Position numbers and translations under genes: made by a program
Part shown: positions 32,635-38,899 of the stretch, in pieces
Position numbering within the stretch: the stretch's first letter is position 1
Layout: every line of letters starts with the position of its first letter
The notes under the pieces: model-generated
Told to the model about the DNA's origin: nothing
The model's database searches: none
Seen by the model: only the letters and a program-made list of their open reading frames with translations
DNA from: Burkholderiales bacterium RIFCSPHIGHO2_01_FULL_63_240
Lineage (GTDB): Bacteria > Pseudomonadota > Gammaproteobacteria > Burkholderiales > Burkholderiaceae_C
Assembly: GCA_001770725.1 (NCBI GenBank)
Contig: MERU01000007.1
Location: forward strand, 420,924 to 484,923
Reading direction: 5' to 3'
Length of the DNA: 64,000 nt

Positions 32635-32684
32635 TGTGTCAGCCTGCTCAGGGCTGCGCCCCTCGGTGTTTGGAGGATTACCCG

Positions 32685-32708
32685 CAACTGTCAGGCAGCT
32701 GACAGTTG
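32685..32708 (+). promoter_or_regulatory. Perfect 10-bp inverted repeat CAACTGTCAG-GCAG-CTGACAGTTG
   Basis: 24-bp palindrome upstream of the beta-helix/cytochrome gene. Confidence 0.6.
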
Positions 32709-32809
32709 GTCCGCGGGCGTGGGCCTAGCCTTGCGCGGACCCACCGGAACAAGGCGCCGTGCACGGGATGTGCGCCGGGGCCGCCGACGACAACTTCAGG
32801 AGGACACCG

Positions 32810-35587
32810 ATGAAGCGCTTGCTTTCCCTGGCCTGCATGTTGATGAGCCTGGCCTGCGTGCAACTGGCCCAGGCTGCGATCCCGAAAGTCTGGCGCATCG
32901 AGCCAGGCTCGAACGCCTCGGCCGAAACGCTCAAGGCCATCTTCTATGCCAGCGAAGGCGACACCGTCGAGTTCGCGGCCGGCACCTTCAACTTCCCCAG
33001 CGGCCTGATCATCCATGGCAAGCGTGGCCTGACCATCCGTGGCGCGGGCAAGGACAAGACCAAGCTCAGCTTCCTGAACAGCAACACCGCCGAAGGCATC
33101 AATGCTTCGCACTGTGAAGGCATCACCATCGAGGACCTGGAGGTCATCGACACCCCGGGCAACGGCATCCGCATCTACCGCTCGAAGTACGTGACGCTGC
33201 GGCGCATCAAGGCCGGCTGGAGCGACGCTGACCCTGTGGCTGCGGGCTACCAGGTCAAGCCCAGCAATGGCTTCTACGCAATCTACCCAGTGATGGTGCA
33301 GCAGCTGCTGGTGGAAGACACCTACTCCTACGGCTCGGTCGATGCGGGCCTGTACGTGGGCCAGTCGAGCGATGTGATCGTGCGTCGCAACGAAGCCCGC
33401 TACAACGTGATCGGCATCGAGCTGGAAAACGTGCAGCGCGGCCTGGTCGAGCAGAACCTGGCCACCGAGAACACCGCGGGCTTCCTGGCCTACGACCTCG
33501 AAGGCCTGTCGCAGTATGGCGATGGCAACGTGGTGCGCAACAACCGCTTCATCAACAACAACACCAAGAACTTCGGCGCGGCCGGCTTCGTCAAGGACGC
33601 GCCCCCGGGCACCGGCGCCATCATCGCCGCGCAGGACAACCTCGAGTTCTACGGCAACGAGATCGCCGACAACCGCACGGCCGGCCTGCTGGTCGTGAAC
33701 TACGGCTTCGTCAACCACAAAGCCACCGACAAGAAGCTGGACTTCTTCAACGAGGCGCTCAACATCCACCACAACACCTTCCGCCACAACGGCTACAAGC
33801 CGCCGATGCTCGACATCAACGACGCCTCGACCACGATCACGGCGCTGATCTGGCTCAAGGGTGGCGGCATCTCGGCGCACATCCTGACCGACGGCCAGGT
33901 CGACAAGCTGGGCGAGTGCGGCGCCTACCCGGTCGACAAGGACGGCATCTCTCTGAAGCTGCCCAACCCGGGCGAGAAGGACCGCGTCAACCCACGCCAG
34001 ACCACGCTGGGCGGCCCGAACTACGGCCTGAGCGACCCGATGCCGGGCTGCCACTTCACCGACTGGAAGTTCAACATCAGCTACAACTGGCTGCTGGGCA
34101 AGCAGGGCGCGTTGCGCGACGACCTGCGCGTGTGCATCACCGACAACCAGTACGACCTGTCCACGCTGCCCTACCTGAACGCCAACGTGAAGAACAGCGA
34201 TTTCACCGACCTGGCGAACTTCAAGCTGGGCGACCGCAACCTGCTGCGCCACCAGTGCAAGCTCAAGAGCGTGCCGCTGCCGGTGCTCAAGCTGCCCTAT
34301 GTGCTGCCCGGCGACGTGGTGACCCAGCCCACGCAGGAAGAGTCGCAGCAGGCCTGCGCCGCATCGCCCAAGACGGCGGTGAACTTCGAGCTGGCCGCGC
34401 GCCACAACTGCCCGACGCTGGAGGCTTACGGCCTGTTCAACAACGAGCAGGACCCGCGTGACCAGCCGCGTGGCAATGGCATGCACTACGAGCTCACGTC
34501 CACGCTGTTCACCAACCACGCGAGCAAGTACCGATTCCTCTTCATCCCGCCGGGCAAGGCCGCGCAGTACCGCGATGGCAAGACGGGCTTCAAGACCACG
34601 CAGCCCGCCGGCGCCGGCACGGGCAACTGGTACCCGGCGGCCGATGTGCCGGCCGAGAGCCTGGCCACACTGGCCTTCCCGACGGGCACCATCATCGCCA
34701 AGACATTCACCTTCCGGCGCGAGGACGCGGCCGGCAAGCTGCTGGCCGAAGACATCATCGAGACGCGCCTGCTCATCAAGCGCGAAGGCCCCGAAGGCCC
34801 GTTCTGGATCGGCCTGCCCTATGTGTGGGAGAAGGAGGTCAGCGGCCGCATGGTGGCGAAGCTGACGCCGCAGGGCCGCGAGGTCTCGGGCCGCTACGAC
34901 TACCTCGATCAGGACCCCGACGTGCGCGACGCCAAGGGCCAGCGCGTGCGCTACACGGGCGATGTGGCGCAGTACAGCGTGCCCTCGGCCATGGCCTGCG
35001 TGGTCTGTCACGGCTCCGACCGCTCGGGCGAGGGTGGGGCGGTGCCCATCGGCCCGAAGGCGCGCTTCCTCAACCGCCTGAACCCGCGCCTGGGCAACCA
35101 AAACCAGCTTCAGTACATGAAGGCGCAAGGCCTGTTGACCGGCCTGCCCACCTCCATGGCGGCGGTCGAGCGCGCGCCGAAGTGGAACGTGCCGGGCGAC
35201 AGCGGTCAGCCCGCGGGCACGGCCGCCGACATCCAGGCGCGTGCGCGTTCCTACCTCGAGGCCAACTGCGCTTCGTGCCACAACCCGGGTGGCGAGGCGG
35301 CGAACTCGGGCCTGTTCCTGCAGCTGTCGGGCCCCTTGACCCAGCAAAGTGGCGTCTGCAAGAAGCCGGTGGCCGCGGGCCGGGGCGCGGGCGGCATCCA
35401 GCACGACCTGGTGCCGGGCAAGCCAGAAGCATCGATCCTGCTGTACCGCATGGCATCGAGCGAGAACGGCGTGCGCATGCCGACGCTGGGCCGCACGATC
35501 CAGCACGCCGAAGCGGTCACCTTCATCAGCGAATGGATCAAGGTCATGCAGGTGGACGACACGGCGCTGGCGCAGTCCTGCCAGTGA
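32810..35587 (+). CDS. Fused right-handed parallel beta-helix domain + diheme c-type cytochrome domain, secreted
   Basis: Signal peptide; N-terminal half with beta-helix turns (VIVRRNEARYNVIGIELENVQRGLVEQNLATENTAGFLAYDLEG); C-terminal half with CVVCH and CASCH heme motifs. Confidence 0.85.
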   Translation: MKRLLSLACMLMSLACVQLAQAAIPKVWRIEPGSNASAETLKAIFYASEGDTVEFAAGTFNFPSGLIIHGKRGLTIRGAGKDKTKLSFLNSNTAEGINASHCEGITIEDLEVIDTPGNGIRIYRSKYVTLRRIKAGWSDADPVAAGYQVKPSNGFYAIYPVMVQQLLVEDTYSYGSVDAGLYVGQSSDVIVRRNEARYNVIGIELENVQRGLVEQNLATENTAGFLAYDLEGLSQYGDGNVVRNNRFINNNTKNFGAAGFVKDAPPGTGAIIAAQDNLEFYGNEIADNRTAGLLVVNYGFVNHKATDKKLDFFNEALNIHHNTFRHNGYKPPMLDINDASTTITALIWLKGGGISAHILTDGQVDKLGECGAYPVDKDGISLKLPNPGEKDRVNPRQTTLGGPNYGLSDPMPGCHFTDWKFNISYNWLLGKQGALRDDLRVCITDNQYDLSTLPYLNANVKNSDFTDLANFKLGDRNLLRHQCKLKSVPLPVLKLPYVLPGDVVTQPTQEESQQACAASPKTAVNFELAARHNCPTLEAYGLFNNEQDPRDQPRGNGMHYELTSTLFTNHASKYRFLFIPPGKAAQYRDGKTGFKTTQPAGAGTGNWYPAADVPAESLATLAFPTGTIIAKTFTFRREDAAGKLLAEDIIETRLLIKREGPEGPFWIGLPYVWEKEVSGRMVAKLTPQGREVSGRYDYLDQDPDVRDAKGQRVRYTGDVAQYSVPSAMACVVCHGSDRSGEGGAVPIGPKARFLNRLNPRLGNQNQLQYMKAQGLLTGLPTSMAAVERAPKWNVPGDSGQPAGTAADIQARARSYLEANCASCHNPGGEAANSGLFLQLSGPLTQQSGVCKKPVAAGRGAGGIQHDLVPGKPEASILLYRMASSENGVRMPTLGRTIQHAEAVTFISEWIKVMQVDDTALAQSCQ

Positions 35588-35602
35588 GGTGATTCGGAAC
35601 GG

Positions 35603-35630
35603 TTGAACGGGCGCGAGCCTGGCGCACAAT
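35603..35630 (+). promoter_or_regulatory. Candidate sigma70 promoter TTGAAC-N16-CACAAT, 6 nt before the ATG
   Basis: -35/-10 match placed so that the +1 would be near the start codon. Confidence 0.45.
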
Positions 35631-35636
35631 GCCGCC

Positions 35637-36815
35637 ATGCCCGCCCTGCGCAACCTGCCCCTGAGCTACATCGCCCGCAACCTCTGGGTGCGGCGCGTGA
35701 CCACGCTGCTCACGGCGGGCGGCATGGCCCTGGTGGTGTACGTGTTCGCCACCGTGCTGATGATGAGCGAGGGCATCCGGGCCACGCTGGTGGCCACGGG
35801 CCAGCCCGACAACGTCATGGTGCTGCGCAAGGGCGCGGGGGCCGAGATCAACTCCGGCATCACGCGCGCTCAGGCCGCCATCGTCGCCAGCTTGCCGGGC
35901 CTGGCCACCGACGGGCAGGGCAGGGCCCTGCTCAGCCGCGAGCCCGTGGTGCTCAACACCCTGCCCAAGCGCGACAGCGGCAAGCCCAGCAACGTCACCG
36001 TGCGCGGCACCTCCGACATCGGCCTGATGCTGCGCCCGCAGGTCAGGTTGCTGCAGGGGCGCATGTTCACGCCGGGCACCTCGGAGATCGTCACCGGCAC
36101 GGCCATTGCCAAGGGCTTCGCGGGCGCGGGCCTGGGCGAGACGCTGCGCTTTGCCGGGCGCGAGTGGCGCGTGGTCGGCGTCTTCGACGCGGCGGGCAGC
36201 GCTTTCGACTCCGAGATCTGGGGCGACAGCGAGCAGATGATGCAGGCCTTTCGCCGCCAGAACTATTCGAGCGTGGTGCTGCGCCTGGCCGATGCCGACG
36301 CCTTCGACAAGCTGCGCACGCGCATCGAGGACGACCCGCGCCTGACGCTGGAGGCCAAGCGCGAGGTGCGCTTTTATGCCGAGCAGTCCGAGGCCCTGGC
36401 CACCTTCATCCGCCTGCTGGGCATGGCGCTGTCGATCATCTTTTCCATCGGGGCCATCGTCGGCGCGATGATCACCATGTTCGCCTCGGTGGCGGCGCGC
36501 ACCGGCGAGATCGGCACCCTGCGTGCGCTGGGTTTCCGGCGCAGCGCGGTGCTCACGGCTTTCCTGGGCGAGGCCTTGCTGCTGGCGCTTGTGGGCGGCA
36601 TCATGGGGCTGGCCGGTGCGTCGCTGATGCAATCGGTGGACATCTCCACGGTGAACTTCCAGACGTTTTCAGAGCTCGCGTTCCGCTTTCGTTTGACGCC
36701 GGCCATCGCCGTGCAGTCCATCGCTTTTGCGCTGCTGATGGGACTGGTCGGTGGCTTCATCCCCGCCTGGCGTGCCGCGCGCATGAAGATCGTCGACTGC
36801 TTGCGCGCGGCCTGA
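35637..36815 (+). CDS. FtsX/MacB-like ABC transporter permease (second)
   Basis: YIARNLWVRRVTTLLTAGGMALVVYVFATVLMMSEGIR; RTGEIGTLRALGFRRSAVLTAFLGEALLLALVGG. Confidence 0.9.
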   Translation: MPALRNLPLSYIARNLWVRRVTTLLTAGGMALVVYVFATVLMMSEGIRATLVATGQPDNVMVLRKGAGAEINSGITRAQAAIVASLPGLATDGQGRALLSREPVVLNTLPKRDSGKPSNVTVRGTSDIGLMLRPQVRLLQGRMFTPGTSEIVTGTAIAKGFAGAGLGETLRFAGREWRVVGVFDAAGSAFDSEIWGDSEQMMQAFRRQNYSSVVLRLADADAFDKLRTRIEDDPRLTLEAKREVRFYAEQSEALATFIRLLGMALSIIFSIGAIVGAMITMFASVAARTGEIGTLRALGFRRSAVLTAFLGEALLLALVGGIMGLAGASLMQSVDISTVNFQTFSELAFRFRLTPAIAVQSIAFALLMGLVGGFIPAWRAARMKIVDCLRAA

Positions 36816-36853: not shown

Positions 36854-37732
36854 ATGCACCTGTGCACCTTCGATCAACATGGCCTCACCCACGTTGCCCT
36901 CGTGCGTGGCAAGGACCTCGTCACCCTGGGTGACAAGCTGGGCCTGGCCGCCCACCAGCCCATGATCGACCTGATCACGCGCTGGTCGGAGCTCCAGCCC
37001 CAGGTGCAGATGCTGGTCGATGCACCGGCCGATGCCTCGCTCGACGAGGTCCACCTTCAGGCGCCGGTGCCGCGTCCGGGCAAGGCCCTGGCCATCGGCC
37101 TGAACTACCTCGATCACGTGCAGGAGAGCATCGTGGGCGAGAGCCGCACGGTGCCCGATCACCAGGTGTGGTTCCCCAAGCTGCCCAACGCCATCAACGG
37201 CCCCTTCGATGACATCGTGCTGCCGCGCATCTCGCAGATGACCGACTACGAGGGCGAGATGGTGGCCGTCATCGGCCAGCGTTGCCGCCACGTGCCCCCC
37301 GAGCGCGCGCACGAGGTGGTGTTCGGCTACGCGGTGGGCAACGATGTGTCGGTGCGCGACATCCAGAAGCGCACCTCGCAATGGACGCTGGGCAAGGGCT
37401 TTGACACGCATGCGCCGTTCGGGCCCTGGATCACGACCGCCGACGAGGTCGAGGACCCGCACGCGCTGGAGCTGAAATGCTGGGTCAATGGCGAGCTGCG
37501 CCAGCACAGCAACACGAAGCTGATGATCCACAACGTGTGGGCGCAGATCGCGCAGCTGACGCAGGTGATGACGCTGGAGCCGGGGGACGTGGTCTTCACC
37601 GGGACCTGTGCCGGTGTCGGCGCTGCTTTTTCACCGCCGAAGTTCTTGCGAGCCGGCGACACGGTGCGCATCGAGATCGAAAGCCTGGGCGCCATCGTGG
37701 CGCATTGCGTGGATGAGGCGCCGTTGGTGTGA
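36854..37732 (+). CDS. Fumarylacetoacetate hydrolase family protein
   Basis: PGKALAIGLNYLDHVQES; YEGEMVAVIGQ; GYAVGNDVSVRDIQKRTSQWTLGKGFDTHAPFGPWI. Confidence 0.93.
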   Translation: MHLCTFDQHGLTHVALVRGKDLVTLGDKLGLAAHQPMIDLITRWSELQPQVQMLVDAPADASLDEVHLQAPVPRPGKALAIGLNYLDHVQESIVGESRTVPDHQVWFPKLPNAINGPFDDIVLPRISQMTDYEGEMVAVIGQRCRHVPPERAHEVVFGYAVGNDVSVRDIQKRTSQWTLGKGFDTHAPFGPWITTADEVEDPHALELKCWVNGELRQHSNTKLMIHNVWAQIAQLTQVMTLEPGDVVFTGTCAGVGAAFSPPKFLRAGDTVRIEIESLGAIVAHCVDEAPLV

Positions 37733-37815
37733 GCTTTTTTGCTGCTCATGCGTCTTTTGATGCTGTGGAGCGGGAGTGGCTCTGTTTTGGGGTGTTGCCA
37801 CGGTTGAGCAACGGT

Positions 37816-37956
37816 CAGGGGGCGAGGGGTGCCTGCTCCGGCCCTGCGCGGGGCACCACCGAGCTGGGCCAACATCACCCCTTGAACGCGAGCCAAGCAG
37901 TTGCCGAGCCATGACACCGCACATGTCGGGCCTGCGCAGGCACCCCTCGCCCCCTG
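37816..37956. repeat. Structured repeat, copy 1: 93-nt core in a 20-bp perfect stem
   Basis: CAGGGGGCGAGGGGTGCCTG (37816-37835) pairs perfectly with 37937-37956; core 37840-37932. Confidence 0.85.
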
Positions 37957-37984
37957 CCCGCGACACAAGGTGGCAGGCGGAGAA

Positions 37985-38024
37985 GGAAGAAGAAGGGCGA
38001 CGCTTGCGTCGCCCTTCTTCTTCC
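37985..38024. repeat. 19-bp perfect hairpin between the two structured repeats
   Basis: GGAAGAAGAAGGGCGACGC-TT-GCGTCGCCCTTCTTCTTCC. Confidence 0.85.
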
Positions 38025-38056
38025 GCCCCTCTAACCGGTGCGCGGTGGTTCGGGTT

Positions 38057-38198
38057 CGGTGGGTGGGGTGGGTGTGAGCCGGCCCGACATGTGCGGTGTC
38101 ATGGCTCGGCAACCACTTGGTCGGTGTTCAAGGGGTGAAGGTTCAACCAGCTCGGTGATGCCCCGCGCAGGGCCGGCTCACACCCACCCCACCCGCCG
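38057..38198. repeat. Structured repeat, copy 2 (inverted): 94-nt core in a 24- to 29-bp stem
   Basis: GGTGGGGTGGGTGTGAGCCGGCCC (38062-38085) pairs perfectly with 38170-38193; core is the reverse complement of the copy 1 core with about a dozen changes. Confidence 0.85.
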
Positions 38199-38244
38199 GA
38201 CCAAGCGCCAGCCGACGCACGATCCCCACCGACCAAAAGCCCCA

Positions 38245-38853
38245 TCAACCACCAACCTCATCCGGCAACAACGAATGCAGCACCGCCCGCACGAACTCGC
38301 TGATCGTGGGCTGCAGCTCCACCAACCTGTCGGCCCGGTCTTCTTCGATGGCCTGCACGATGAGCTCGTTGATGCCCCCCACCGTGGCCGTCGCCAGCGC
38401 CGGTGACAGCGGCCGCTTGCCCGGCTCCTTCAGCCGCGACAGCTCCACCTGCATCATCAGGAACTGCGTGAAGCGCTCGCTGATGCGCCGCCGCATGGCC
38501 AGGCCCTTGGGCCCCAGCGTCAGCATCTCCAGGTAGAGCGCGCGCACCAGGGCGGGCCGCTGCTGCAGGTTGTGCAGGTAGGCGGCCGTCACCTTTTCCA
38601 GCTCTTGCACCCAGTCGCCTTCCGGGTCGTAGCCCGCTGCGATCACGCCCATCACCTCTTCGCTCAGGCGCTCGCACAGGGCCAGCAGGCAGGCCTCCTT
38701 GCCATCGAAGTGCTCGTAGAACGTGCGGCGCGACACGTGGGCGGCCGCCACCACGTCCGCGATGGTGAGGTCGGCCCAGGCGCGCTCGCACAGCACCAGG
38801 GCCAGGCCGTCAAGCAGTCGCTGTCGGGGGGCAGGGGCGCTGTCGGGGGACAT
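38245..38853 (-). CDS. TetR/AcrR family regulator, paralogous to 1063-1671
   Basis: TIADVVAAAHVSRRTFYEHFDGKEACLLALCERLSEE; shared C-terminal pattern GGINELIVQAIEEDRADRLVEL. Confidence 0.88.
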   Translation of the reverse strand: MSPDSAPAPRQRLLDGLALVLCERAWADLTIADVVAAAHVSRRTFYEHFDGKEACLLALCERLSEEVMGVIAAGYDPEGDWVQELEKVTAAYLHNLQQRPALVRALYLEMLTLGPKGLAMRRRISERFTQFLMMQVELSRLKEPGKRPLSPALATATVGGINELIVQAIEEDRADRLVELQPTISEFVRAVLHSLLPDEVGG

Positions 38854-38899
38854 GTTGGCGCTTTGGGTCGGCACGTGAATGGGGCGGGTGGTCGGGTTT

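Follow-up and report, generated by a model that had tools for sequence, protein, structure and literature searches.

What is the inverted pair of structured elements that lies between two convergent genes in the 64,000-nucleotide stretch of Burkholderiales DNA analysed here (the window), and does it belong to anything larger than this locus? A sequence-only reading of the window had described two hairpins, with paired arms and a shared core, at 37816-37956 and 38062-38193. These were confirmed at those positions, but the true extents of the hairpins are longer (Table 1). That reading did not include a central hairpin (T), a head-out pairing rule, the existence of two arm types (A and B) or an asymmetry between strands in the mismatches of the stems. 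Hairpins A and B contain one core in opposite orientations. When whole hairpins were folded and compared with shuffled sequences, none of 200 shuffles reached the fold of either one (z-scores in Table 1). A conserved 29-mer, sought with up to three mismatches, occurs at just two sites in the window, namely hairpins A and B, and at none in 100 shuffled versions. Elsewhere in the window, a 991-codon open frame on the minus strand (32678-35653) lies antisense to a real-looking gene on the plus strand (32759-35587); this frame is a consequence of the high G+C content, and simple ORF lists mislead there.

Table 1. Coordinates of the composite element and its surroundings in the window.
Feature	Position	Strand	Remarks
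Composite element B-T-A	37796..38220	.	~425 bp; one of 8 in the host genome
Hairpin B	37796..37975	-	Constrained (sense) strand, from wobble asymmetry; approximate span; fold z = -6.6
Core of B, orientation of the sequence-only reading	37840-37932	+	
Conserved 79-nt core of B	37847..37925	-	Match to covariance model R1; G000:C7:458770-458848, minus strand
Hairpin T, central, perfect	37985..38024	.	GGAAGAAGAAGGGCGACGC / GCGTCGCCCTTCTTCTTCC; 19/19 paired
Hairpin A	38039..38220	+	Constrained (sense) strand; two U.G wobbles in the stem on the + strand; approximate span; fold z = -9.2
Conserved 79-nt core of A	38088..38167	+	Match to covariance model R1; G000:C7:459011-459090, plus strand
FAA_hydrolase family (fumarylacetoacetate-hydrolase) gene	36854..37732	+	Context only; flanks the element
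TetR family gene	38245..38874	-	Context only; convergent flank of the element

The sequence-only reading had named further copies with the same core as support for its view, and such copies exist. When the core was searched against the 4.12-Mb host genome, 18 strong copies were returned (E below 1e-8; the E-values of our searches rest on a short calibration). Sixteen of these form eight inverted pairs with similar spacing, and the remaining copies are single or truncated. In every intact host composite, one hairpin is A-armed, the other is B-armed, and T lies between them. The host total is eight composites and three deletion remnants: C9:62558 retains B and T, C7:243264 has a left arm of type B and a right arm of type A, and C6:357920 is also a remnant. 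The truncated copies look like deletions within a composite. In our set of loci, L003, L019 and L170 are deletion remnants.

The orientation of the paired units is largely uniform. Among 51 distinct neighboring pairs, 47 are head-out, none is head-in and four are in tandem; all 47 of the distinct inverted pairs are therefore head-out. The position between convergent genes, which the sequence-only reading had noted, holds here and for seven of the 11 host loci, gene contexts being approximate, as the genes were called from codon usage with a simple program trained on the window. It is not universal: tandem genes flank other copies, and a single ortholog group is found in a divergent context, divergent promoter regions being otherwise nearly avoided. 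The orientation of single copies relative to neighboring genes is mixed and uninformative. At five loci (L001, L010, L012, L013 and L014), the outer flanks, followed inward from the gene, comprise 20-40 nt of T-rich sequence and then G+T-rich sequence (for example, GATTTTTTGTGCGG and GGTTTTTAGGTTGGG); these flanks may belong to the element or may reflect a target preference.

How widely is the element distributed? A DNA search with the core was positive in 13 of 121 genomes (the host included), all of one genus, which we took to be Aquabacterium from its named relatives (A. parvum B6). A covariance model built on the core only (R1) detected the element in 17 of 42 genomes of this genus. At the family level, the same model was positive in 12 of 401 genomes, representing six genera, five of them besides the host's; because this search scored no more than 11 candidates per genome, its copy numbers outside the host are lower bounds. 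A class-wide search of 369 genomes was positive for the host alone, and it doubles as a false-positive control for R1. A 16-mer scan of genome contigs returned chiefly chance matches, but it did put names to some carriers: Aquabacterium parvum, Comamonadaceae bacterium 2PF and YF3.bin23. Distant blastn with three queries against plasmid records and two against phage records gave no match, nor did an exact 23-mer search of viral contigs. The family is patchy yet old in the Burkholderiaceae. In a genome of another genus (G378), two or three units are arranged in tandem on the same strand, about 200-205 nt apart (L257:3102-3592, L259:3006-3289 and L258:3258-3536); one of these arrays ends beside an intrinsic terminator. 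Four species have one copy each, at a convergent site that is orthologous among them and between two ordinary terminators (L145, L146, L147 and L148), and the arms of these copies resemble no other group.

Comparisons with close relatives show that the element has moved, as at least two host copies occupy sites that are empty in relatives. The site of L012 (host C2:224615) is empty in G016, G028 and G033, where an ordinary intrinsic terminator lies between the convergent genes; in the host, the composite is present and such a terminator is absent. The site of L009 (C13:61008) is empty in G028. At the window's own site, the element is missing from 15 more distant congeners, whose gap from stop to stop is short, and G016 and G033 carry the whole composite. 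At that same FAH/TetR site, G028 has a single hybrid hairpin (L170) with a left arm of type B and a right arm of type A, the same type of deletion as that at host C7:243264. Four close genomes have many loci in common, but other loci are private. Because of the empty sites, the mobile structured repeat, one of several options offered by the sequence-only reading, fits best. The flanks at the empty sites are too diverged to define the element's ends or a target-site duplication. A Y1_Tnp (RAYT/IS200) gene is absent from the host genome (99.99% complete) and from 11 of 14 carriers, and a reverse transcriptase is absent from the host and five other carriers. Neither enzyme was retained as the candidate mobiliser, there being none in the host and no consistency among carriers.

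Is the structure under selection? The sequence-only reading had seen a compensatory pattern in the different but fully paired arms of the window's two copies. That comparison by itself is no evidence of compensation, as the difference between A and B arms is fixed and recurs at every intact host composite. Compensation is evident instead when loci, species and genera are compared. Across 41 aligned hairpins, six of 13 stem pairs have changed on both sides with pairing retained (at one stem pair, 18 hairpins have GC, 18 have UA and four have AU). Hairpins from other species and genera have wholly different arms that still pair. Those arms do not keep four G-runs, and the G-quadruplex that the sequence-only reading thought possible is not a conserved property. 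The core behaves differently from the arms: each half of the composite is a unit of about 180 nt, within which the core has about 27 invariant positions, including a short helix, CGCGG/CCGCG. Beyond this helix, individual folds, consensus folds and mutual information yielded no consistent internal helix. Columns 63 and 97 of the core alignment covary as G-G or C-C across genera, combinations that do not allow mutual pairing; this behavior hints at a tertiary contact or a common third partner.

The stems also bear on which strand is constrained. An RNA stem accepts G.U pairs but not A.C pairs, and a G.U in an imperfect palindrome is an A.C on the opposite strand; the type of mismatch therefore tells which strand is under constraint. 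In strict stems from Aquabacterium, with events collapsed by position and lineage, 21 events were G.U on the minus strand of the core (in the orientation of the sequence-only reading) and one was of the opposite kind (p=1.1e-5). The five other genera gave 41 G.U vs. 4 A.C in unique-context counts (p=9e-9); raw G.U counts on the record strands of these genera were equal (32 and 31). The two members of a pair have their sense strands on opposite strands of the chromosome and yet both follow the wobble rule, which rules out a replication-strand mutation bias as the source of the asymmetry. To judge from these comparisons, the constrained molecule is the minus strand of the core, as either RNA or single-stranded DNA (ssDNA). 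A stem may have up to 3-4 wobble pairs, a frequency that would favor RNA, but G.T pairs are tolerated by ssDNA as well; we infer that RNA is the constrained form. The one-sided mismatch statistic is direct comparative evidence for the working strand, and it renders RNA and DNA models testable at specific loci whose empty alleles are known. A sense RNA, if one is made, would be a structured RNA that has so far gone unrecognised and that has many copies per genome.

The sequence-only reading had also suggested a bidirectional terminator. This suggestion does not suit hairpins A and B, which lack U-tracts. Only T could terminate, and a terminator scan of 37730-38260 called neither T nor any other intrinsic terminator (a GC-rich stem followed by a U-tract). 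T has an interrupted TTCTTCTT tract within its extended stem, and weak terminator activity is possible on that basis. Its stem, GGCGACGC/GCGTCGCC, recurs at host composites, unlike the window's other terminator-like hairpins, and for this reason we assign T to the element. In Aquabacterium, T moves along with the pair as a possible bidirectional terminator, and it may substitute for a host terminator lost at the insertion site. There, T lies upstream of each sense-strand unit with respect to the transcript from the nearest convergent gene; if T terminates, this placement would hinder read-through from the convergent genes. No promoter-like site was found in the element.

We read the window element as a copy of an undescribed, non-autonomous family of dispersed elements in the Burkholderiaceae, the unit of which is a single-stranded fold, and we place the probability of this reading at about 0.6. 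The family is best viewed as new and REPIN-like, encoding a strand-specific structured unit. In this unit, a long stem that is free in sequence but preserved in pairing closes a core of about 80-100 nt. In most genomes, two units move head-out as one insertion, presumably through an enzyme supplied in trans. The long duplex stem may present the core or may release it through RNase III. A bolder form of this reading is that the spreading unit is itself a structured bacterial RNA of a new class, which may be catalytic or may be a ligand for a specific protein. It would multiply in head-out pairs and in tandem arrays, and several hosts, this one among them, have no recognisable Y1 transposase or reverse transcriptase; we regard this form as tentative and rather improbable.

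The element could instead be of the REPIN/IS200 type, acting as ssDNA: a Y1 (HUH) or similar transposase would recognise one strand as hairpins and transpose the head-out pair, and RNA would play no part. The strand-specific fold and the sites that are empty in relatives suit such an element, as does the finding that doublets form the unit and that singles are what deletions leave behind, a pattern known from REPINs (PMC3116915). However, the Y1_Tnp gene is missing from the host and most carriers, no GTAG/CGTC tag occupies a fixed position relative to the stem, the long core is far better conserved than the arms, and the frequent wobbles would fit RNA better than DNA. On these grounds, we judge a purely ssDNA element to be unlikely.

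Less likely still is a cis-acting module at the 3' ends of genes, kept by the host to end transcription in both directions and to stabilise mRNA; in such a module, T would act as the terminator and the hairpins would block exonucleases. The predominance of convergent contexts, the near-avoidance of divergent promoter regions and the loss of the native terminator at the sole dated insertion (L012) all agree with this proposal. It does not account for the absence of T from other genera and from some Aquabacterium pairs, nor for stems without U-tracts; moreover, a plain stabiliser has no need of an invariant core, and wobble tolerance marks the strand that is not read first by each nearest convergent transcript. 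Could the copies simply be inert repeats under no selection? In long perfect palindromes, one arm can be corrected from the other by template switching, which would keep them perfect, and the existence of deletion remnants is in keeping with inert copies. Such correction is strand-symmetric and thus cannot yield mismatch ratios of 21:1 and 41:4, and it leaves the invariance of the core across genera unexplained; we consider this explanation very improbable. The preferred reading remains that of a mobile, REPIN-like family with a constrained strand.

How does this family compare with known systems? The sequence-only reading had recognised no repeat or RNA family here, and Rfam, searched at gathering and relaxed thresholds, concurs: nothing scored above gathering, and the sub-threshold matches were chiefly to miRNA-precursor models, which reward any long hairpin. 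Integron attC sites are strand-specific hairpins with variable arms and a conserved structure, all of which they share with the present element. They differ in that their conserved bases lie at the arm ends, whereas those described here lie in the core that the arms enclose, and in that attC sites occur in cassette arrays instead of head-out pairs. Candidate structured RNAs from comparative genomics, such as Burkholderiales-1, resemble the element in having a conserved core and a compensatory stem within one bacterial order (PMC2864571). The element differs from them in its dispersed head-out pairs and tandem arrays, and it matches no Rfam family; Burkholderiales-1 is entered without an Rfam accession in the table of that source. 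In the literature, with Burkholderiales-1 compared by its table entry, we found no account of the present family. Like MITEs, the element is a short, non-autonomous intergenic insertion with inverted halves and with sites that are empty in relatives. Its inverted halves, however, are complex hairpins that differ in their arms (A vs. B), and the diverged flanks let us define neither a simple terminal inverted repeat nor a target-site duplication.

The well-studied dispersed palindromic repeats of bacteria are tagged REP elements that are driven by RAYT transposases. REPINs and BIMEs are like the present family in having the inverted doublet as the unit, singlets as decayed remnants and compensatory hairpins (PMC3116915). 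REPs favor intergenic sites between convergent or unidirectional genes, and their stems often contain G-T pairs (PMC3733652); our element is likewise intergenic, situated away from divergent promoters and endowed with G-T stem pairs. The differences are in scale and machinery. Each half measures about 180 nt here vs. 20-40 in a REPIN palindrome, and it encloses a large conserved core; there are about ten copies per genome vs. hundreds. Neither the host nor 11 of the 14 carriers has a RAYT, and the GTAG/CGTC tag is wanting: GTAG is found in at most six of 116 flanks with no fixed place beside the stem, and CGTC recurs solely about 74-80 nt upstream, at the position of hairpin T. Because the tag and RAYT were not found and because unit size and core conservation differ, we class the family as REPIN-like in behavior and not as a REPIN. 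What is new here, with no tag and with no RAYT in most carriers, is a REPIN-like paired architecture that carries a large conserved core.
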